Origin: Rhodohalobacter barkolensis
GTDB lineage: Bacteria > Bacteroidota > Rhodothermia > Balneolales > Balneolaceae
NCBI RefSeq assembly: GCF_002834295.1
Contig: NZ_PISP01000001.1
Span: 1,488,001-1,552,000, forward strand
Reading direction: 5' to 3'
Length of the DNA stretch: 64,000 bases
Shown here: in pieces, positions 52,719 to 64,000 of the stretch
Numbering within the stretch: position 1 is the stretch's first letter
Layout: each line of letters starts with the position of its first letter
Notes under the pieces: model-generated
What the model was told of the DNA's origin: nothing
The model's input: only the letters and a program-made list of their open reading frames with translations
Database searches by the model: none
Translations under genes and position numbers: made by a program

Positions 52719-53897
52719 ATGCTTCAAAAAGCTACTTTGCTCAAATCCGGTCTTCTAATCTTTACCTTTCTGATTACCTCTGTCAGCACAATCTCTGCAC
52801 AAAATCTTTACTACCCGCCTGCAGGGATTGGCGACAATTGGGAACAGAAATCCGCCTCGGAATTAGGATTTCAATCCTCCGAATTGGATGATGCCGTTCA
52901 GTTTGCTATCAACAATGAAAACAGTGTAGAGAATGATCTTCGAATTGCCATCCTGAAGGGATTTAGTCATGAACCATACCATCAACTTGCGGGGCCTGTC
53001 AGAGAGCGGGGCAATCCGGCTGGAATGGTGATTAAAGATGGATATATTGCTTCAAGCTGGGGTGATTTGAAACGGGTAGATATGACATTCAGCGTTACCA
53101 AAAGTTATCTCTCGGCCGTTGCCGGATTGGCCTGGGATGATGGTTTGATCCACAGCCCGGACGACCGACTCACAGAATATGTTTGGGATCGCACCTTTGA
53201 TGGAGAGCATAATTCAAAGATTACCTGGGAGCATCTTCTCAATCAATCATCAGATTGGTACGGCACACTTTTCGGGATGGAAGACTGGAGTGACCGTCCA
53301 CCTCGTGAGGGCGGCATTGACGACTGGCGTTACCGTGAACTGCATGAACCTGGCACGCACTACAAATACAATGATGTTCGGGTAAATCTTCTCGCCTACT
53401 CACTGCTAAAGGTTTGGCGAAATCCACTACCCCAAGTATTAAAACAGAGAATAATGGATCCAATCGGAGCTTCTTCAACCTGGCGCTGGTATGGATATGA
53501 CAACTCTTTCGAAATGATCGACGGTGTGGAAATGCAGTCGGTCAGCGGTGGAGGACATAACGGCGGCGGACTCTTCATCAGCACCTATGATCACGCCCGC
53601 TTTGGACTCCTTTTTGCAAGAAACGGTGTATGGAAAGATCAGCAACTTATCTCCCGGGAGTGGATTGAAAAATCCGTCGCACCATCTCCTGCCAACTCGC
53701 AATACGGTTATCTCTGGTGGCTGCAGGATGACGAGAATAATTTCGAGGATGTGCCGGATCATGTCTACTACGCAGCCGGTTTTGGGGGCAACTTCATTGT
53801 TGTGGATGATCAAAATGACATTGTTATTGTTTTGCGATGGATTGACAGTTCAAAACTCGGTGATTTTGTAGAGATGGTTTACCAGGCACTTGAATAA
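52719..53897 (+). CDS. secreted serine hydrolase, class C beta-lactamase fold
   Basis: 392 residues with a signal peptide (LLIFTFLITSVSTISA-Q). Active-site SxxK is Ser125-VT-Lys128 in MTFSVTKSYLSAV, the YxN-type motif lies in HYKYNDVRVN, and HNGGGLFIST takes the place of the KTG box. These are the features of esterase/peptidase relatives of AmpC. The substrate is unknown; an antibiotic-resistance role is not implied. It ends about 100 bases before satD. Confidence 0.88.
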   Translation: MLQKATLLKSGLLIFTFLITSVSTISAQNLYYPPAGIGDNWEQKSASELGFQSSELDDAVQFAINNENSVENDLRIAILKGFSHEPYHQLAGPVRERGNPAGMVIKDGYIASSWGDLKRVDMTFSVTKSYLSAVAGLAWDDGLIHSPDDRLTEYVWDRTFDGEHNSKITWEHLLNQSSDWYGTLFGMEDWSDRPPREGGIDDWRYRELHEPGTHYKYNDVRVNLLAYSLLKVWRNPLPQVLKQRIMDPIGASSTWRWYGYDNSFEMIDGVEMQSVSGGGHNGGGLFISTYDHARFGLLFARNGVWKDQQLISREWIEKSVAPSPANSQYGYLWWLQDDENNFEDVPDHVYYAAGFGGNFIVVDDQNDIVIVLRWIDSSKLGDFVEMVYQALE

Positions 53898-55790: not shown

Positions 55791-56327
55791 TCAAATAAAG
55801 CGAACATTATACTTTCCACAAATTGAAAAAACCTTCTCCATTTCCGGCGGCCCCGGTGGCAGTGATCCCAATTCCTCAAACATATGTTCCAGTCCGGCAG
55901 GGAAAATACTCAAATCAACTTTCGCAGGTTGATCTCCAACTACCCGCCAACTGTGTGGAATACCTCTTGGGGCAAACGCCGTATCACCCGCTTTCAAAAC
56001 TGCTGTATCTTCACCAACTTTCACCTCCAGTTCGCCCTCAATCACACGAAATATTTCATCCTCATCTTCATGAATATGAGTTGGAATTTGTACACCCGGC
56101 TCATTATTCTCTTCAATAAGCGTGAACTGACCATTGGTCTCTTCTCCTGTCAGTTTAAAAGTCATCTTATCCCCCAAAACATTGATCTTTTTCCCTTCAC
56201 TATTCCTTACAATTTTTGGCGAGGACATTTCAGTAATCACCGATTCTGTATTGATTCTTCCAAATGGTGCTATCACAAAGGTGCTCGTTCCAATTCCTGC
56301 TACTCTCAGAAATTCTGATCTTTTCAT
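55791..56327 (-). CDS. exported cupin-domain protein
   Basis: 178 residues from MKRSEFLRVAG (an ATG five codons earlier is possible). The N-terminus resembles a Tat-type signal with KR in place of RR and the core IGTSTFVIAPF. A single cupin domain follows: PTHIHEDEDEIFRVIEGELEV with three likely metal ligands, then GDTAFAPRGIPHSWRVVG. Role unknown; such proteins bind or oxidise small molecules. It lies 97 bases from the AraC regulator gene, same strand. Confidence 0.78.
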   Translation of the reverse strand: MKRSEFLRVAGIGTSTFVIAPFGRINTESVITEMSSPKIVRNSEGKKINVLGDKMTFKLTGEETNGQFTLIEENNEPGVQIPTHIHEDEDEIFRVIEGELEVKVGEDTAVLKAGDTAFAPRGIPHSWRVVGDQPAKVDLSIFPAGLEHMFEELGSLPPGPPEMEKVFSICGKYNVRFI

Positions 56328-56423
56328 TGCTTCATCTGTCATTTAATTTTGAATTGAGTTTCAAATATGACTTTTGAAGGAAGATCATTCCATACAAAAA
56401 AGGTGGGAAATCATATATAAATG

Positions 56424-57227
56424 TCACATCTGACGAAAATCAGTCGGCGATGATCCAAATTCTCTTTTGAAAAAATTACTAAAGTGAAACGGTTCCGAAA
56501 ACCCAAGTTCAAATGCAATTTCCTTAACATTTTTTGCTGAAAACTTCAGTTCTCTTCTAGCATGTATCATAATCTGTTCCACGATCAAAGACTTGGCTGT
56601 TACACCTAAAATCTCACGTACTGCCCGATTCAGATATTTTGGTGTGACATGCAACTGCTCTGCATACAGACTAACTCTGTGTATCGTCTTGTAGTTCTTG
56701 GCAATCAACTCTTTGTAATTAGCTACCAGTCGTACACCGTTTTGGCTACACTCTCCATTCAGACGGATATTGCAGCGACTGTCGCAGTAGACTAACAGTG
56801 TTTTAAACAGCGATGCTACTCCCTGCTCACGATTTGGAATAATTGATCCACTCAATTCATCAATCATCTCAGCAAGGTTATGAACCCTATCCCCAATTTT
56901 TGGGCTTAGAATTATTTTCGGTATCTTATCAAAGCCTGACAGAAGCTCTGCCTCTTTGATGCGAAGATTCTCTCTTACCCGATCCCGCATATATGATTTT
57001 GAAAACAACAAAATCCACCCTTCAAAATCGTCACCGGGTTCAACAGTAACAAAACGTGAAGGAGTTAAAAAACAGATTAAATTGGGGCATGCCTCAAACT
57101 CTTGATCATCAATTCGAATTCGTTTGAATCCATTTCGCATCCACAAAATCTGGTAGTACTCCCCGTTTGTATAATCCCTTTTCCCCAACTCAAAGGAGCG
57201 GATCACAATTTCATCCTGATTCCCCAT
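56424..57227 (-). CDS. AraC-family transcription regulator
   Basis: 267 residues. The N-terminal cupin-like sensor (about 1-140) reads YQILWMRNGFKRIRIDDQEF. The C-terminal double helix-turn-helix ends with FSAKNVKEIAFELGFSEPFHFSNFFKREFGSSPTDFR, the AraC signature. The ligand is unknown; the downstream cupin gene is the most likely target. It is preceded on the right by the largest repeat island. Confidence 0.88.
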   Translation of the reverse strand: MGNQDEIVIRSFELGKRDYTNGEYYQILWMRNGFKRIRIDDQEFEACPNLICFLTPSRFVTVEPGDDFEGWILLFSKSYMRDRVRENLRIKEAELLSGFDKIPKIILSPKIGDRVHNLAEMIDELSGSIIPNREQGVASLFKTLLVYCDSRCNIRLNGECSQNGVRLVANYKELIAKNYKTIHRVSLYAEQLHVTPKYLNRAVREILGVTAKSLIVEQIMIHARRELKFSAKNVKEIAFELGFSEPFHFSNFFKREFGSSPTDFRQM

Positions 57228-57365
57228 AACACATTACGGCTTTTTGTTTTACAATTCCTCAAAGCAGTATGTCTCTCTTAAAAAAGAATGTAGCAAAAAA
57301 GTACATTCCGTGCAGTTGCCTCTTTTAACAGCCTTCCGTTACCAGGCAACAGACCCCAAATCGCA

Positions 57366-57734
57366 GTTCGTTATTCGTCAATCAACTCCTCGTCCCGCAG
57401 CTCCTTTCAGAATCCTCGTCTGTCGAAATCCGGTGCGCTTTTGCGGCGGTTCGCCCGACGAGTTTTTTCAGGTTACAAGCGGCAGGACGCAGGCTCCCAT
57501 CTCCCTCCTCATCCCGGTCCACGGCGACGACAATCATGCAGCTCCGCTGCATAAAACGCCTTAACCCCAATTTGAATGGATTTAATCAAATTGAACGCTT
57601 AAGATGACCGCCTCTGATTTGTTTGATACTCCGAACCTACCCCTCTGATCGGCGGGGTATTTGGAATGGCCCATATTCCCCGGGTTTCGTTTCACTTCAC
57701 CCGAGGCTAATTACATTCTGCCCCGCTGGGGCAG
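57366..57734 (-). repeat. composite A-E-B-F repeat, island copy 1
   Basis: On the - strand: A at 57734-57675 (CTGCCCCAGCGGGGCAGAAT, then TTAGCCTCGGGTGAAGTGAA), E at 57660-57585, B at 57552-57505 (GCAGCGGAGCTGC, then TGTCGTCGCCG), F at 57463-57366 (CGACAGACGAGGATTCTGAA and TGACGAATAACGAACTGCGA). Confidence 0.78.
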
Positions 57735-57780
57735 AGTAAAAATCCCCCTGTCGGCCTGTCGCGGCACACTTCACAAATCA

Positions 57781-58040
57781 AAATTCGATATTCGTTATTC
57801 ATCATTCAATTCTTCTCGTCCCGGTGCTCCGCGACGGGGACAACAACCAGCAGCTCCGCTGCATATAGTTTCGAGCTCCTAAATCTGTTTAGACAAATTC
57901 AATTTGTGAGATGACCGCCTCTAATCTTTTCTATGCTCTGAACCAATCTCTCTGTTCGGCGAAATTTTGTGATAATCGCTGTATTCCCCGGGTTTCGTTT
58001 CACTTCACCCAAGGCTAATTACATTCTACCCCGTTGGGGC
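57781..58040 (-). repeat. composite A-E-B-F repeat, island copy 2
   Basis: A at 58040-57981, E at 57965-57895 (CGCCGAACAGAGAGATTGGT, then AGAGGCGGTCATCT), B at 57865-57811 (GCAGCGGAGCTGCTGGTTGT, then GAGCACCGGGACGAG), and a short F at 57811-57781. Same order as copy 1, about 0.3 kb apart. Confidence 0.78.
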
Positions 58041-58112
58041 ATTTTCGTTTCCCCGTCTGAATGCTGTAGTTGCCAGATGCAGGCTTCAAGCAACAGGCCC
58101 CATACAGTTCTG

Positions 58113-58276
58113 TGTTCGTTATTCGTAATTCAATTCTTCCGGGTCCCGGTGCTCTTTTCAGAATCCTCGTCTGTCGAATCCCAGCGCGCTTTTGCAGCGG
58201 TTCGCCTGACGAGTAGAACTCACCTCCTCGTCCCGGAGCTCCGCTCCGGCGGCGACAACCCAGCAGCTCTGCTGCC
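58113..58276 (-). repeat. B-F modules, island copy 3
   Basis: B at 58276-58224 (GCAGCAGAGCTGCTGGGTTG), F at 58213-58113 (CGACAGACGAGGATTCTGAA, shared exactly with copy 1 over 20 bases). The A and E modules are missing. Confidence 0.72.
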
Positions 58277-58356
58277 TTCAGGTTGCTGGCGGCAGGCATC
58301 ATGTTGCAGGTGAAATCAAACCCGAGCAGTGTATTCCGTAAACCGAAACCAAAATT

Positions 58357-58397
58357 CCGACGCTGACAGGATCCTCCTTGCGTCGGTAGGCTGTCAG
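58357..58397. repeat. D-family hairpin after the 997-residue gene
   Basis: CCGACGC pairs with GCGTCGG (58380-58386), and CTGACAG (58363-58369) pairs with CTGTCAG (58391-58397). The two pairings interleave, so they compete or form a pseudoknot. It starts nine bases past the stop. Confidence 0.62.
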
Positions 58398-58405
58398 GTC
58401 TTGAC

Positions 58406-61399
58406 TTACATCCTGGCAGACCGCTTACTGATGCTGAATGAACTGTTCTGCAACATTTCGGCGAGTCCGTCTCCGTCATCATCAAGATCAAGCGGATCAA
58501 CCTCCAGATCAAAATGCCACTCCCCTCCGGTGAACAGCACGGTAAGAGTTCCACCCGTTGGTAAATCACTTCCACCCTCCAGCTCATTCAGATTGTAGGA
58601 CCACTGATATACATCATCCGTTGACTCAGTTTCACTCGTTTGGTTAGCGTTCGGATCCACGCCTTCTTTCGACTCCATGGTCTCCAATTCACTGCCCACA
58701 TTTCGTCCCGTGCGTGCACTGCGCTTGCTGATGCTGTAGGATGCTGTTTCAATGCCATCCAGCACTCCATCATCATCTGAATCCTCATCGATTGGATCGA
58801 TCTCCAGATCAAAATGGATTCCGTCTCCATCACTATCCATATCTTCGTCACCGGATGGATTACGACCGGTTCTTGCGCTTCGCTTGCTGATACTAAATGA
58901 TGCAGATTTCATGAAATCCGGGAAACCGTTGGAATCAACTTTACCTCTGCGAATATCTTTCTTATCGATTCCTCGTTCTGCTTGCGCACTCGAGCTCATC
59001 TCCTGTTGGGAGTTGGTTCCAATTTCCATACAGTAAGACCCCGGCTGAATAGTATATCGCTGAACATTTGCAGATTCCGGGTCATCGCTGTCTCCATCGT
59101 TAGCCTGTCCTTCATCGAGCGGATTTTCACCGGAATTTGAGTTACTGTTGTATAGAGGATTACCACCTGATGCCACCATACCTGTCTTTACAATCACGCC
59201 CGCCGGATTTGCCAACCGGGCCATTGTGAAATCTACTCCATCATCAATTCCGTCATCATCACTGTCCATGTCACCGTCACCAATATCCGCAGCGCGCGAG
59301 GACGGTTTGTTGGATCGGCTGGAGTTGTAATCCCGAGCCGGTGCGATCTGCGCCAGATCGCTCAGTCGATTCATTTTTACCAGCAGTTTCTCTTCCATTG
59401 CCAATGCTTCCCGGCAGACGTCGGTTTCACATTTCCCCAATGATTCAACATCCTCTTTCACAATGTTTAAAATCTCTTCAATATGCGTATCGAATTCAGA
59501 GGGGTTATTCTGGGCACTTCTAACTGCACTATCGCGGTGATCAGCATTTAGTCTCACCTGCCCGCATACACCTTCATCACATCGATCCAGAACCTGCTTG
59601 ATGTTTTCAATATCGTCGCCTACAGAAGCGAGTCCCAGTTCTTTCGCCAGGTACAAGTTATGATCCGGCTGCGGGCACATATCTCCTTCACAAGAGTCTA
59701 CACTTGCCCCGGAAGTATCACCCCAGCAATATACCTCACCACTTCCATCCATGAGACTGGCTCTGGAATTATCACCCCAGCAGTACACTTCACCATCTCC
59801 GTTCTCAAGACTTGCACTGGAAGCAACTCCCCACGAATACACTTTACCCTCGTCACCACCGGCACTGGTTTTTGGAGCTAATCCCCAACTATACAGTTTC
59901 CCATTTTCATCTTGCATGATGGCTTCAGGCTCCCCTCCCCAGGCATATACTTTTCCGTCACCATCTTGTGTAATCAGCACTACCTGTTGTCCGGCATCAT
60001 CTCCCTGGTCATTGCCACCATCTGCAGCACTGGATGTAGGCTTGTTCGACCGGGCTGCATTGTAATCCTGCGCGGCGACAGCTCTGCCTGACTGAACCAG
60101 ACTCATAAGAACATTCATGTGTTCCAGAAGCTGCACCTCTTTAGTTAAAACTTCTCTACACACATCCGACTCACACTTTTGGAGAGACGCCACATCCTCC
60201 GTCACGATGCTGTGAATATCTTCTATTCCTTGATCCTGTGATATTTGTCTCTGTCTCACTTGTCGATATTTATCTACTCTCCCATCCGCATTCTGTCGTA
60301 CCTGAGTACAGACTTCATCCTCGCAGCGATCCAATACTTCAATAATCTCATCTATAAAACTGTCAACCGCGGTGAGTCCCTCACCTTTTATAATCACAAC
60401 ATCATCCAGAGCTGCTTCTGATCTCGGCTTATTGGATCGGCTGGAGTTATAATCCTTCGCACGACTACCATCGGGTGTACAACGGATATCACCATCATCG
60501 CAATCACCCCCGCCATCATTGGCAATACTTCCGCCGGGTTTATTGGACCGGCTGGAATTGTAATCCTGGCCGGGCGCAGCCGGTGCACTGGATCCGCCAA
60601 AGCTTATTTTAATTCCGGCATTGGCAAAAAAGTTCGTTTTTGGAGCCTTTTCGGTTCGCTGGACCAACGGAGCCTGCTCAAACTGTGAGTACATCTCAAA
60701 AACGTTATCCACCTGCATCACACGCGATAAGTCTCTTTCAGTGTAGGTAATTTCTCGATCTGACAGATGGTGCTGAATTCCCGTCTTGATATTAAAACTA
60801 AACCGATCACTAAACCCTGGCTTAAATTCAAACTGCATCTGTGGGCGGATTGCAGTTGTCCAACCGCCACTATCCTCACCCTCCATCTCGGCTAAAACAA
60901 TGTCACTATCAATCCCGGAGCTCTCCAGCTCACCGGTTGTATCATTGAACCGGACTGATTGTGAAGGTGCTTCCTGATTGCTCATTGCCAAATCGAGACC
61001 CAGGTTCATACTTACAAAACGACTCAGGCTCTGTTCAAACCGAGGGCCGAAATTGATGTAAAACGCTTCCCACTGATTTTCACTCGCTTCGGATACCGTA
61101 AACTGCTCATATCCGGTTCTATATTGATCAGCACTGAAACCGGAATCAAACGAATAGATGCCGGCATTGAGCCCCACTCCCCATCTCCCCGGCATGTAAC
61201 TTAATCCGAGTTCCGGCTGAAAGGCTGTATTTGTTGTGGAATTACCGATTAATCCTCCACCGGCATTCAACTCAATCGAAAACGGCCGGGATGATTGCTG
61301 TGCATGAGAAAGGTTTGTAATAAGACCTAATATTGAAATGAGGAAAATAGAAAAGGAAAGCTTTTGAAAAACAAATTTGTAACGATGATCCATAGACAT
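58406..61399 (-). CDS. secreted repeat protein: barrel-like N-terminus plus four repeat families
   Basis: 997 residues; signal peptide to about residue 33 (LISILGLITNLSHA-Q). 36-268 alternates like an outer-membrane barrel (NAGGGLIGNS to ANAGIKISFGG). Then come four motifs DYN(S/A)(S/A)RSNKP at 279, 316, 445 and 690. Two equal-length cysteine modules have Cys359/364/409/414 and Cys607/612/657/662, the same 5-45-5 spacing. Five tandem 18-residue units (V/L)Y(A/S/C)WG start at 483, 501, 519, 537 and 555. Asp-rich, calcium-binding-like stretches alternate with SISKRSARTGRN at 836 and 889 and a cut copy, SISKRSARM, at the end. I do not recognise the family. A surface or adhesion role is plausible. 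The abrupt end next to the repeat island suggests loss of a longer C-terminus. Confidence 0.8.
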   Translation of the reverse strand: MSMDHRYKFVFQKLSFSIFLISILGLITNLSHAQQSSRPFSIELNAGGGLIGNSTTNTAFQPELGLSYMPGRWGVGLNAGIYSFDSGFSADQYRTGYEQFTVSEASENQWEAFYINFGPRFEQSLSRFVSMNLGLDLAMSNQEAPSQSVRFNDTTGELESSGIDSDIVLAEMEGEDSGGWTTAIRPQMQFEFKPGFSDRFSFNIKTGIQHHLSDREITYTERDLSRVMQVDNVFEMYSQFEQAPLVQRTEKAPKTNFFANAGIKISFGGSSAPAAPGQDYNSSRSNKPGGSIANDGGGDCDDGDIRCTPDGSRAKDYNSSRSNKPRSEAALDDVVIIKGEGLTAVDSFIDEIIEVLDRCEDEVCTQVRQNADGRVDKYRQVRQRQISQDQGIEDIHSIVTEDVASLQKCESDVCREVLTKEVQLLEHMNVLMSLVQSGRAVAAQDYNAARSNKPTSSAADGGNDQGDDAGQQVVLITQDGDGKVYAWGGEPEAIMQDENGKLYSWGLAPKTSAGGDEGKVYSWGVASSASLENGDGEVYCWGDNSRASLMDGSGEVYCWGDTSGASVDSCEGDMCPQPDHNLYLAKELGLASVGDDIENIKQVLDRCDEGVCGQVRLNADHRDSAVRSAQNNPSEFDTHIEEILNIVKEDVESLGKCETDVCREALAMEEKLLVKMNRLSDLAQIAPARDYNSSRSNKPSSRAADIGDGDMDSDDDGIDDGVDFTMARLANPAGVIVKTGMVASGGNPLYNSNSNSGENPLDEGQANDGDSDDPESANVQRYTIQPGSYCMEIGTNSQQEMSSSAQAERGIDKKDIRRGKVDSNGFPDFMKSASFSISKRSARTGRNPSGDEDMDSDGDGIHFDLEIDPIDEDSDDDGVLDGIETASYSISKRSARTGRNVGSELETMESKEGVDPNANQTSETESTDDVYQWSYNLNELEGGSDLPTGGTLTVLFTGGEWHFDLEVDPLDLDDDGDGLAEMLQNSSFSISKRSARM
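59684..59953 (-). repeat. 54-base coding tandem repeat, five units
   Basis: Encodes the five 18-residue VYxWG units exactly in register inside the 997-residue gene. Such repeats vary in number by slippage or recombination. Confidence 0.8.
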
Positions 61400-61693
61400 G
61401 TTGTTTTTTAAGGGTAAACATCCAGCATCAAAACTGAACTGTAGGAATAAAACACAATAAGTCTATAAATACAATTATACCTACGTAATTAACCCTCTTG
61501 AAAATATTGACTCCCATTGAATTACCTTAATAAATAAGATGACCAACTATTTTTATGTGCAAAGTGTAAATGTTAGAATCATGTAATTGAGATGGGGTAA
61601 TCCTGAAATCCAACTTACGGAGATAATTCACTGAGAATTGTTCTCAATTCGTTATTGTTTAATCGTTAAATCAACTTTTAGTGGTAACTCAAT
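61400..61693. other. 294-base AT-rich divergent promoter region
   Basis: Lies between the divergent 997-residue and CIA30 genes. No repeat module or gene is seen; promoters for both are expected here. Confidence 0.5.
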
Positions 61694-62215
61694 ATGTATA
61701 TAAAGCCTGTAGTAATAACCGATTTTACCAATTTAGCGAACCAAAAATGGGAAATTATAAATGATGATGTGATGGGAGGCCAATCCGAAAGTCAGTTTCA
61801 GATTAATAAAGATGGAAATGCTGTTTTTCTAGGGCACATCTCGCTAAAAAACAGTGGCGGATTTGCATCAGTTCGAAATCATGAGCCGTTAAATTTAAGT
61901 GGATTTAACACTATAAGATTGACAGTTAAGGGGGATGGCAACCAATACAGCTTCAGATTAAAACCCAATACAGAAAATCCGGCTGCTAATTTTTGGTACG
62001 AAGATAGATTTCAAACCAAGAATGGCGAGTGGATTGAAATAGAACTTGCATTAAAAGACTTTGAACCTACTTACAGGGGAAGAAAACCTCAAAATGCCGC
62101 GACGTTGGATGTGGAAAATATTGAACAGTTTGGTTTCTTGATCAGTGACAAACAAAAAGGGGAATTCCGGCTTGAAATCAATAAAATTGAAGCCTTACCG
62201 GATTCCCACTCTTAA
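61694..62215 (+). CDS. CIA30-family protein
   Basis: 173 residues. The CIA30 pattern is clear: NQKWEIINDDVMGGQSES near 23-40, GFASVRNHEPLNLSGFNTI, and QFGFLISDKQKGEFRLEI at the end. In mitochondria CIA30 helps assemble complex I; bacterial members are galactose-binding-like beta sandwiches of unknown role. No signal peptide, so probably cytoplasmic. It converges with the outer-membrane protein gene, with six bases between stops. Confidence 0.88.
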   Translation: MYIKPVVITDFTNLANQKWEIINDDVMGGQSESQFQINKDGNAVFLGHISLKNSGGFASVRNHEPLNLSGFNTIRLTVKGDGNQYSFRLKPNTENPAANFWYEDRFQTKNGEWIEIELALKDFEPTYRGRKPQNAATLDVENIEQFGFLISDKQKGEFRLEINKIEALPDSHS

Positions 62216-62221
62216 CCATTT

Positions 62222-63781
62222 TTAGTATAAATTAAATCTCACCGTTGCAAGCACTTGCCAGCGGTCTACATTTCTGGATGCATTTTCTGACTGAAAATTA
62301 AATGCAGGCGGTTCATCCGGAAGGGCTGAATAATCATATTCTGCATAATCGTAAACGGATGATACCTCATCCCATGCTTTATATTGACCTGCAAACTCAA
62401 ATTGAACACCGGGTGAAATTGCAATTCCTGTTCCAAAAGAAAAGATACTGCGGTCATCGGTACCGTTTTCAAATTTACTTGGCAAATAGCTGTAACCGCC
62501 ACGTAAAGTTAATCCATCATTAATCTGATATTGAACCCCTCCTCTAAGATTCCAAACCGATCTGAAGTTATTCTCGATAAACTCATTTTCTACAATTTCA
62601 TCTTCAAAAAGGTTACCGTCATTGAAATCTACTCGGGTACCGGCGTAGTTTACATACTCAGCAGCAGTCGAGATTGTAATTCCATTCAGATCATTCAGTG
62701 AAAAACCGATCGAGGTTCTTGAGGGCATCTCTATATTGTAGACAAACTCACTGTTTAGCTCATCCTCAAAGACTACACTGTTGTCAAACGTGGTTTGAAT
62801 ATTCGCATCAAAGATCTCCTCAACTTCCATACGGGTTCCCATTGTATAACTTGCACCTATGTTGAGAATCTCGTTCAAGCGATATATTGCACCTGCTCGA
62901 AGTTTTAATCCTGTATAATTACTTCTGATTTGATCTTGAAGGAGGATATTATCAATATCACTATCTCCTGTACCATCATCATTCGTATCGATAAAATCAC
63001 TATTGTAGTCATTAAAATTATCCACTTCCTGGAAGAGGCGATCATACTTGTAACGTCCGTTCAAAACCCCCAGACTTACTCCAACCATCAAATCTTCCTG
63101 AAATTCAGTCGCTGCAAAGAAACTGTACTCACCGCCATAACCACTTTCAAAAATTTCTCCCTGCTGTCGAATACCTAAATAGTCACCCCATTCAGGAAAT
63201 CCGATTCTAAAGATCGACTCATCCCAATCTTCAAACTCATCACCGTAGTCGATAGCAAAAGTGTTAAAAGCGATGTCGGCATAAGTTGAACCGGGAGACT
63301 TAAATTGATCTGTAATGGAAGTCTGTTCATTGCGCCCCCTGAAGCCAAGAGCCCTGTTAAATACCGAATGTTGATTGTAGCCGGCCCCAACTACAAGACT
63401 TCCTTGCTGGGTAGGAAACGAGTAGACAAAACCTGCGCTCGACAAATTAAACTGATTGTCACTTAACGATTGCGAACTGTTTACAAATTGTGCTGATTCA
63501 TCAACAGTGGTATAAGCCAGTCCAAACTGGCCAAAACTTTGATTGTACAGCGCTGCAGAAGCCGGGTTATCTAAAAAAGATCCGAAGCCGCCTGCATATG
63601 CCGTCCCCGGCATTACAATTGTGACAGGATCCATTGCAATCCCCTGATCGCTAAACATATTTGCCTGGTTACTGTACAGCAGAGAATTTAATGAATTTGT
63701 TGATTGCCCGATCGACGTATTTAATCCGGTTACAAGCAGTAAAACCCCTACTATCGTCAGTGATTTTATAATTTTTTGCAT
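62222..63781 (-). CDS. OmpP1/FadL-like outer-membrane barrel
   Basis: 519 residues from MQKIIKS (the frame is open nine codons further). Signal peptide with LTIVGVLLLVTGLNTSIGQ. PVTIVMPGTAYAGGFGSFLDNPASAAL is the FadL-like N-terminal hatch with the NPA motif. Alternating beta strands follow to a final VLATVRFNLY, ending in an aromatic residue as outer-membrane proteins do. Likely a hydrophobic-substrate channel. It has its own upstream region, just past the terminator of the next gene. Confidence 0.83.
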   Translation of the reverse strand: MQKIIKSLTIVGVLLLVTGLNTSIGQSTNSLNSLLYSNQANMFSDQGIAMDPVTIVMPGTAYAGGFGSFLDNPASAALYNQSFGQFGLAYTTVDESAQFVNSSQSLSDNQFNLSSAGFVYSFPTQQGSLVVGAGYNQHSVFNRALGFRGRNEQTSITDQFKSPGSTYADIAFNTFAIDYGDEFEDWDESIFRIGFPEWGDYLGIRQQGEIFESGYGGEYSFFAATEFQEDLMVGVSLGVLNGRYKYDRLFQEVDNFNDYNSDFIDTNDDGTGDSDIDNILLQDQIRSNYTGLKLRAGAIYRLNEILNIGASYTMGTRMEVEEIFDANIQTTFDNSVVFEDELNSEFVYNIEMPSRTSIGFSLNDLNGITISTAAEYVNYAGTRVDFNDGNLFEDEIVENEFIENNFRSVWNLRGGVQYQINDGLTLRGGYSYLPSKFENGTDDRSIFSFGTGIAISPGVQFEFAGQYKAWDEVSSVYDYAEYDYSALPDEPPAFNFQSENASRNVDRWQVLATVRFNLY

Positions 63782-63823
63782 ACTTCTCCTATAGATCTTG
63801 AATATCAAAATGAAGGTAAAAAA

Positions 63824-63846
63824 AGCCGAATGCAGAACATTCGGCT
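63824..63846 (-). terminator. terminator of the Ser/Arg-rich gene
   Basis: Stem AGCCGAATG / CATTCGGCT with a five-base loop, followed on the - strand by seven T, six bases past the stop. Confidence 0.85.
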
Positions 63847-63851
63847 CTCAA

Positions 63852-64000
63852 TCAATTATTTCTATTGTTTGAAGATGATGAAGATCGACTTCTTGATGAT
63901 GACCCACTGCTGCTGGATCGATTACTTGATGATCGTTTAACAGCTGAACGATTTGAACTGCTGCTTCTGGTACGATTTACACTTGAAGAGGATGACCTAC
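63852..64000 (-). CDS. C-terminus of a Ser/Arg/Asn-rich protein, 5' end outside window
   Basis: The last 49 codons before a TGA at 63852-63854 encode almost only Ser, Arg, Asn, Lys and Val: RSSSSSVNRTRSSSSNRSAV, then KRSSSNRSSSSG and SSSRSRSSSSSNNRNN. Low complexity and strongly basic. The frame is supported by the terminator six bases downstream. Its RSN/NRS content recalls the RSNKP motifs of the 997-residue protein nearby. The family cannot be told from the fragment. Confidence 0.68.
   Translation of the reverse strand, partial: RSSSSSVNRTRSSSSNRSAVKRSSSNRSSSSGSSSRSRSSSSSNNRNN

Follow-up and report, generated by a model that had tools for sequence, protein, structure and literature searches.

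In outer-membrane proteins of the OmpA type, an even number of strands brings the C-terminus of the barrel out on the same side as its N-terminus, in the periplasm. Inverse autotransporters of the intimin type combine a 12-stranded N-terminal barrel with a C-terminal passenger. TraB and OmpA are described as a barrel, then TSP3 Ca-binding repeats, then an OmpA domain (PMC12045341, which cites a structural paper by Dai et al. 2017).

The protein described here, from Rhodohalobacter barkolensis, has, like OmpA, OprF and Myxococcus TraB, an N-terminal barrel, predicted to be 8-stranded, that is followed by Asp-rich calcium-type repeats. It differs from them in that no OmpA-like C-terminal domain was detected, and it carries Cys four-helix modules and two recurrent peptides instead. 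The window analyzed is a stretch of 64,000 nucleotides (contig NZ_PISP01000001.1, positions 1,488,001 to 1,552,000), in which the 997-aa ORF starts with ATG on the minus strand (Table 1). A first-pass annotation had listed several repeat families in this ORF and had matched it to no named family. The ORF and all the listed repeats proved real when their positions were re-read, and no match of the whole chain to a characterised family was found in Pfam, NCBIfam, or the PDB sequences. By parts, the statement holds for the arm, which matches no described family. The anchor resembles known barrels (OmpA/OmpW-like), the YxWG array passes the RCC1_2 cut-off, and SISKRSARTGRNP has a likeness to the HU/IHF signature.

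Table 1 Features of the 997-aa gene, with positions in the window
Feature	Position	Strand	Basis
Complete gene, 997 aa	58406..61399	-	ORF and matches in relatives
Putative signal-peptide-like N-terminus, residues 1-33, ...SHA/QQ	61301..61399	-	Read by eye
Predicted 8-stranded OmpA/OmpW-type beta-barrel, residues 36-268	60596..61294	-	AlphaFold2 model and PDB fold matches
DYNSSRSNKP copy 1, residues 279-288	60536..60565	-	Motif pattern
DYNSSRSNKP copy 2, residues 316-325	60425..60454	-	Motif pattern
Cys module 1, residues 323-438, CX4C-x44-CX4C	60086..60433	-	Copy alignment
DYNAARSNKP copy 3, residues 445-454	60038..60067	-	Motif pattern
Five 18-residue YxWG repeats, residues 480-569, RCC1_2-like	59693..59962	-	Pfam and repeat count
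Cys module 2, residues 571-686, predicted four-helix bundle	59342..59689	-	Model, pLDDT ~75-88
DYNSSRSNKP copy 4, residues 690-699	59303..59332	-	Motif pattern
EF-hand/TSP3-like loop DSDDDGIDDGVD, residues 712-723	59231..59266	-	Loop pattern
MARLxNP...GNPLY...ENPL...QPGSYC segment, residues 725-793	59021..59227	-	Kept in relatives (alignment)
SISKRSARTGRN copy 1, residues 836-847, then P; HU/IHF-arm-like	58859..58894	-	Pattern and family matches
EF-hand-like loop DSDDDGVLDGIE, residues 873-884	58748..58783	-	Loop pattern
SISKRSARTGRN copy 2, residues 889-900	58700..58735	-	Motif pattern
EF-hand-like loop DDDGDGLAEMLQ, residues 973-984	58448..58483	-	Loop pattern
C-terminal SISKRSARM, residues 989-997	58409..58435	-	Shorter than the SISKRSARTGRN-stop of several relatives

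The predicted barrel and the position of the arm

AlphaFold2 was run on an alignment of eight sequences and gave five models; the best had a mean pLDDT of 74 and the other four about 50, that is, one good model in five. The barrel-like N-terminus reported earlier is a beta-barrel in the best model, with eight long strands in which short turns (residues 69-72, 125-128, and 193-199) alternate with long loops (86-108, 144-177, and 212-254). Comparison with PDB folds matched it to the OprF barrel (Z 13.1, 2.6 A, 133 residues), OmpA (Z 13.0, 2.4 A, 134 of 137 residues), and OmpW (Z 12.6, 4.0 A, 174 residues). Foldseek returned the same OprF/OmpA/OmpW group, with E values of 4e-6 to 1e-3. The linker behind the barrel is rich in Ala and Pro (SSAPAAPG), which we take to recall OmpA's hinge. 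A Pfam scan of the 997-aa protein found no OmpA family at E≤1 that could correspond to the C-terminal peptidoglycan-binding domain.

Because of the strand parity and loop lengths of the predicted barrel, the arm of ~725 residues that follows it would lie, by OmpA topology, in the periplasm and not on the surface. This argues against the surface scaffold or display protein proposed in the first-pass annotation. The arm is strongly acidic, with a net charge of -78.

Modules and peptides of the arm

The two cysteine modules have exactly the 5-45-5 spacing first noticed in them (C359/C364/C409/C414 and C607/C612/C657/C662), and all six copies aligned from three genomes are free of indels between the cysteines. 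In the four-helix model of module 2, the two CX4C pairs sit in the turns that link helix 1 to helix 2 and helix 3 to helix 4. No family was recognised for this module: nothing convincing was found among the PDB sequences (best E 0.76), no Pfam family rose above chance (best E 0.034, in one of six copies), and no Foldseek match reached E 0.001. The fold matches were generic four-helix bundles, among them pectin methylesterase inhibitors, ROP, and copper storage proteins (Z 10-15). A search of 394 genomes of the phylum found the module in 3, each time in the family of the 997-aa gene.

Outside the Cys module, the arm mostly models below pLDDT 50-70, with short strands at SFSISKR, HFDLEID, LTVLFTG, and WHFDLEV. 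Judged from this model and the alignment with relatives, the repeating unit of the arm may consist of a strand (HFDLEIDP), an Asp loop, a short helix, a second strand (SxSISKR), and a basic tail.

Residues 271-997 contain three EF-hand-like loops, whereas 2000 shuffles of the residues gave 0.07 on average and never more than 2; the R. halophilus relative (G019) has six, against a shuffle mean of 0.08. Loops of the TSP3/EF-hand form DxDxDG...[DE] therefore occur above chance, and together with the SISK peptides they bear out the acidic, calcium-like segments and basic motifs of the earlier description. The loops probably fold on Ca2+. As they represent a fit to a pattern, and the strict pattern is found in neither the G024 nor the G111 relative, Ca2+ binding may not be general in the family.

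The five YxWG repeats start at residues 485, 503, 521, 539, and 557, with the exact period of 18 given in the first-pass annotation. The array scores 30.7 bits against the Pfam RCC1_2 cut-off of 22 and shares the core GxVYxWGxN with RCC1 repeats (PF13540). It differs from these in its period, 18 rather than about 50, and in having five repeats of exactly 18 residues where RCC1 has about seven blades of ~50. It occurs only in this genome's copy; none of the eight further gene pieces read has it. Given its period and this absence, the array is probably a private expansion.

Two peptides recur along the arm. The pattern DYN[SA][SA]RSNKP occurs four times; the DYNSSRSNKP motif of the earlier list needs the small correction that one copy reads DYNAARSNKP. 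At the DNA level, DYNxxRSNKP has four matches in the 3.6 Mb genome, each within the 997-aa gene (reversed control 0), and a looser pattern has 13, four of them in this gene (reversed control 10). Of 30 places listed over 116 genomes (control 13), 19 lie in the gene's family (G000, G003, G019, and G084); the remaining 11, when translated by eye, lack the motif. A degenerate DNA pattern for SISKRSARTGR matched 12 times, in 6 of 128 genomes and always in the same family (reversed control 0). Within the genomes scanned, DYNSSRSNKP and SISKRSARTGRN are thus limited to this gene. The first-pass annotation had raised the possibility of a shared sorting or modification system; a genome-wide mark of this kind is ruled out, as each motif is confined to one gene per genome scanned. 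None of the papers in the literature collection searched contains DYNSSRSN, SISKRSAR, or KRSARTGR.

Most differences between the copies of these peptides are synonymous, a sign of purifying selection on both. DYN copies within genes have a pS of 0.76 and a pN of 0.065, and the SISKRSAR 11-mers 0.71 and 0.17, ratios that are descriptive, since the repeats are short, non-independent, and chosen by a peptide pattern, a choice that in itself lowers pN; for comparison, the barrels of G000 and G019 have a pS of 0.61 and a pN of 0.10. The C-terminal SISKRSAR copy uses a TCT serine codon in four of five genomes, and all nine internal copies use AGY. Such position-specific codons indicate that the SISK copies are old and unhomogenised, and that their sameness does not come from recent gene conversion. 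An in-frame mobile DNA repeat is ruled out by the many synonymous differences between copies. Both peptides often come after Asp loops, and the protein ends in a third copy of SISKRSARTGRN, cut to SISKRSARM, in which the last residues of the motif are missing.

The second peptide bears a resemblance to the arm signature of HU/IHF proteins. SFSISKRSARTGRNP matches NCBIfam IHF-beta with E 1.1e-4 in the whole protein and 1.7e-5 in the C-terminal part, as do the C-terminal parts of four of seven family members (best E 1.7e-7); Pfam Bac_DNA_binding gives E 0.009 in the 997-aa protein and 0.013 in G019. These scores, which may be raised by summing duplicated motif copies, stay below the curated cut-offs for the whole domain of ~90 residues (22.5 bits against 119.95 for IHF-beta, at model positions 49-74 of 94, and 16.7 against 22.4 for Bac_DNA_binding). 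The arm shares with HU/IHF the signature F-x-[IV]-x-x-R-x-x-R-T-G-R-N-P, but the match spans 18-26 residues, between a fifth and a quarter of the domain; the remainder of the HU domain is absent. Of 14 motif copies, 2 have the arm-tip proline after GRN. For SISKRSARTGRNP, these comparisons point to resemblance and not to membership.

Family range and exchange of arms

The 997-aa protein was matched in 8 of 58 genomes of relatives, its own included, and a seven-piece profile matched 12 of the 128 genomes of the order. Eight of these 12 have a repeat-type C-terminal region (G000, G019, G003, G024, G084, G030, G111, and G057, the last a fragment at a contig end); G009, G022, G123, and a second gene of G024 encode a different form of ~1600 residues, and G117 has the N-terminus only, at a contig end. 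In the named collection, a barrel profile found seven loci, in R. halophilus JZ3C29, Gracilimonas amylolytica LA399, and Balneolaceae MAGs (one labelled Chitinophagaceae). This is a small, lineage-restricted family, seen in Balneolaceae. A phage or plasmid origin was also considered, and tblastn found no match in either collection (50,697 phage and 72,556 plasmid records).

Copy numbers vary between relatives, and modules are gained and lost. In the R. halophilus copy, the frame is broken near residues 72-74 (L026 6013-6228 and 6158-9043; the same as L125), by damage to the gene or by misassembly. In a short form of 282 residues in G030 (L029 7753-8601), SISKRSARTGR units and the C-terminal module come straight after half a barrel.

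No constant partner gene was found at the loci compared, and around the R. halophilus copy the neighbors differ. Upstream in the window lie a gene for a CIA30-family protein (61694-62215, E 6e-47) and one for an OmpP1/FadL-type transporter (62222-63808, E 7e-10). In G019 and G003, the CIA30 gene and the barrel gene are on different contigs, which argues against a stable operon. A serine-hydrolase-like gene, named by eye (52719-53897), recurs nearby in G111 (71% identity) and G022 (65%), as does a SatD-like gene in G022. On the other side, the ~0.9 kb between an AraC-type gene and the 997-aa gene (57349-58284) consist of repeated non-coding blocks, among them one of 60 bases (57674 and 57982, 95% identity) and one of 77 bases (57387 and 58138, 86%). 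A search of 56000-64000, which takes in this stretch, gave no Rfam match at the gathering threshold.

The giant proteins of G009, G022, G024, and G123 carry a barrel of the same family, 47-81% identical to the repeat-type barrels, but their ~1300 C-terminal residues are unrelated to the repeat-type arm. A gene of ~708 aa follows each of them (L030, L031, L032, and L104); the one in L031, adjoining the G022 giant, has an fn3 domain, and the large protein of L031 itself gave no Pfam family. Among the giants, the C-terminal regions are 77-88% identical, whereas the barrels are 52-55% identical in five of six pairs and 87% in G022/G009. The repeat-type barrel of G024 is 78-81% identical to the giant barrels of G022 and G009 but 50-61% identical to the other repeat-type barrels, among which G019 and the short G030 form were compared only in part. 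It groups with the giants in the tree (support 98/99), and its pS is 0.51-0.63 to the giants against 0.76-0.88 to the two repeat types compared. The G022 and G024 giants show a step in identity inside the arm, near residue 470-480, with a pS of 0.79 in the barrel and 0.55 in the arm. For G022 and G123 the two values are about equal (0.72 and 0.73), which leaves room for faster barrel evolution in that pair. Judged from these sequences, the repeat-type gene of G024 is chimeric between the two lineages, and the discordant identities, the tree, and the pS values argue that barrel and arm are at least sometimes exchanged by recombination.

Possible roles of the protein

We tentatively favor, at a little short of an even chance, an OmpA-like envelope anchor in which the peptidoglycan-binding domain has been replaced by an arm of Ca loops and motifs, the whole acting as a tether or scaffold. 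The chain would run from a signal peptide through an 8-stranded outer-membrane barrel into a long periplasmic arm made of Asp-rich loops on Ca2+, four-helix Cys modules, and the DYNSSRSNKP and SISKRSARTGRN peptides. Stiffened by calcium, this arm would bridge the envelope as a tether or scaffold, with its basic peptides docking onto an anionic polymer of the cell wall or a partner in the periplasm. The barrel would serve as a portable anchor to which recombination joins different arms. The sparseness of the family (12 of 128 genomes) argues against a housekeeping tether. It is unlikely that the arm is instead displayed on the surface or acts as an adhesin, exported via the barrel or alongside it in the manner of inverse autotransporters. 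Such proteins also have an N-terminal barrel before a long repetitive C-terminal region, the rapid module turnover is typical of exposed proteins, and the paralogue with a ~1300-residue arm adjoins a gene with an fn3 domain. However, the model, at moderate confidence, has 8 strands and not the 12 of a translocator, an OmpA/OprF-like barrel too narrow for a passenger, and no intimin/invasin-type Pfam domain was found at E≤1. A neutral repeat tail, driven by recombination and with no specific function of its motifs, seems less probable still. The differing copy numbers, the coming and going of modules, the YxWG array private to this genome, and the broken R. halophilus frame fit it, but the retention of the peptides while synonymous sites approach saturation largely contradicts it, and the position-specific serine codons and exact Cys-module spacing also speak against it.

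Quite doubtful is a peptide code. Balneolaceae would use one small barrel as a portable anchor for exchangeable periplasmic arms; in the repeat-type arm, each Ca2+ loop would be followed by either DYNSSRSNKP or the HU-arm-like SISKRSARTGRN, and these peptides would be read by an envelope partner or polyanion and switched by Ca2+ in salty habitats. We consider it very unlikely that the arm handles metal, with the four Cys at one end of the bundle binding Cu or Zn and forming no disulfides. The CX4C pairs do sit at the helix turns in the model, and copper storage proteins are among the weak fold matches (Z about 10-11), but four-helix bundles match each other at such Z values, none reached E 0.001 in Foldseek, and each module has four Cys where many line the inside of the four-helix bundles of Csp proteins. 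That the SISKRSARTGRNP peptides bind polyanions in the manner of the HU/IHF arm, with DNA or some other polyanion held in the envelope by the arm, is the most improbable of these readings. The IHF-beta and Bac_DNA_binding matches in four of seven members and the strands modelled at SFSISKR and HFDLEID are consistent with it. Against this, the match covers 18-26 of 90 residues at 22.5 versus 120 bits, the copies are duplicates with an overstated summed score, two of the 14 have the tip proline, and the arm carries a net charge of -78.

The Cys module is a ready target for structure work, and the two strongly conserved peptides, each found in a single gene, offer a handle on an envelope partner in halophilic Balneolaceae. 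If the reading as an OmpA-like tether or scaffold is true, OmpA-type anchors can trade their conserved peptidoglycan-binding domain for a lineage-private arm, with barrel and arm swapped by recombination.
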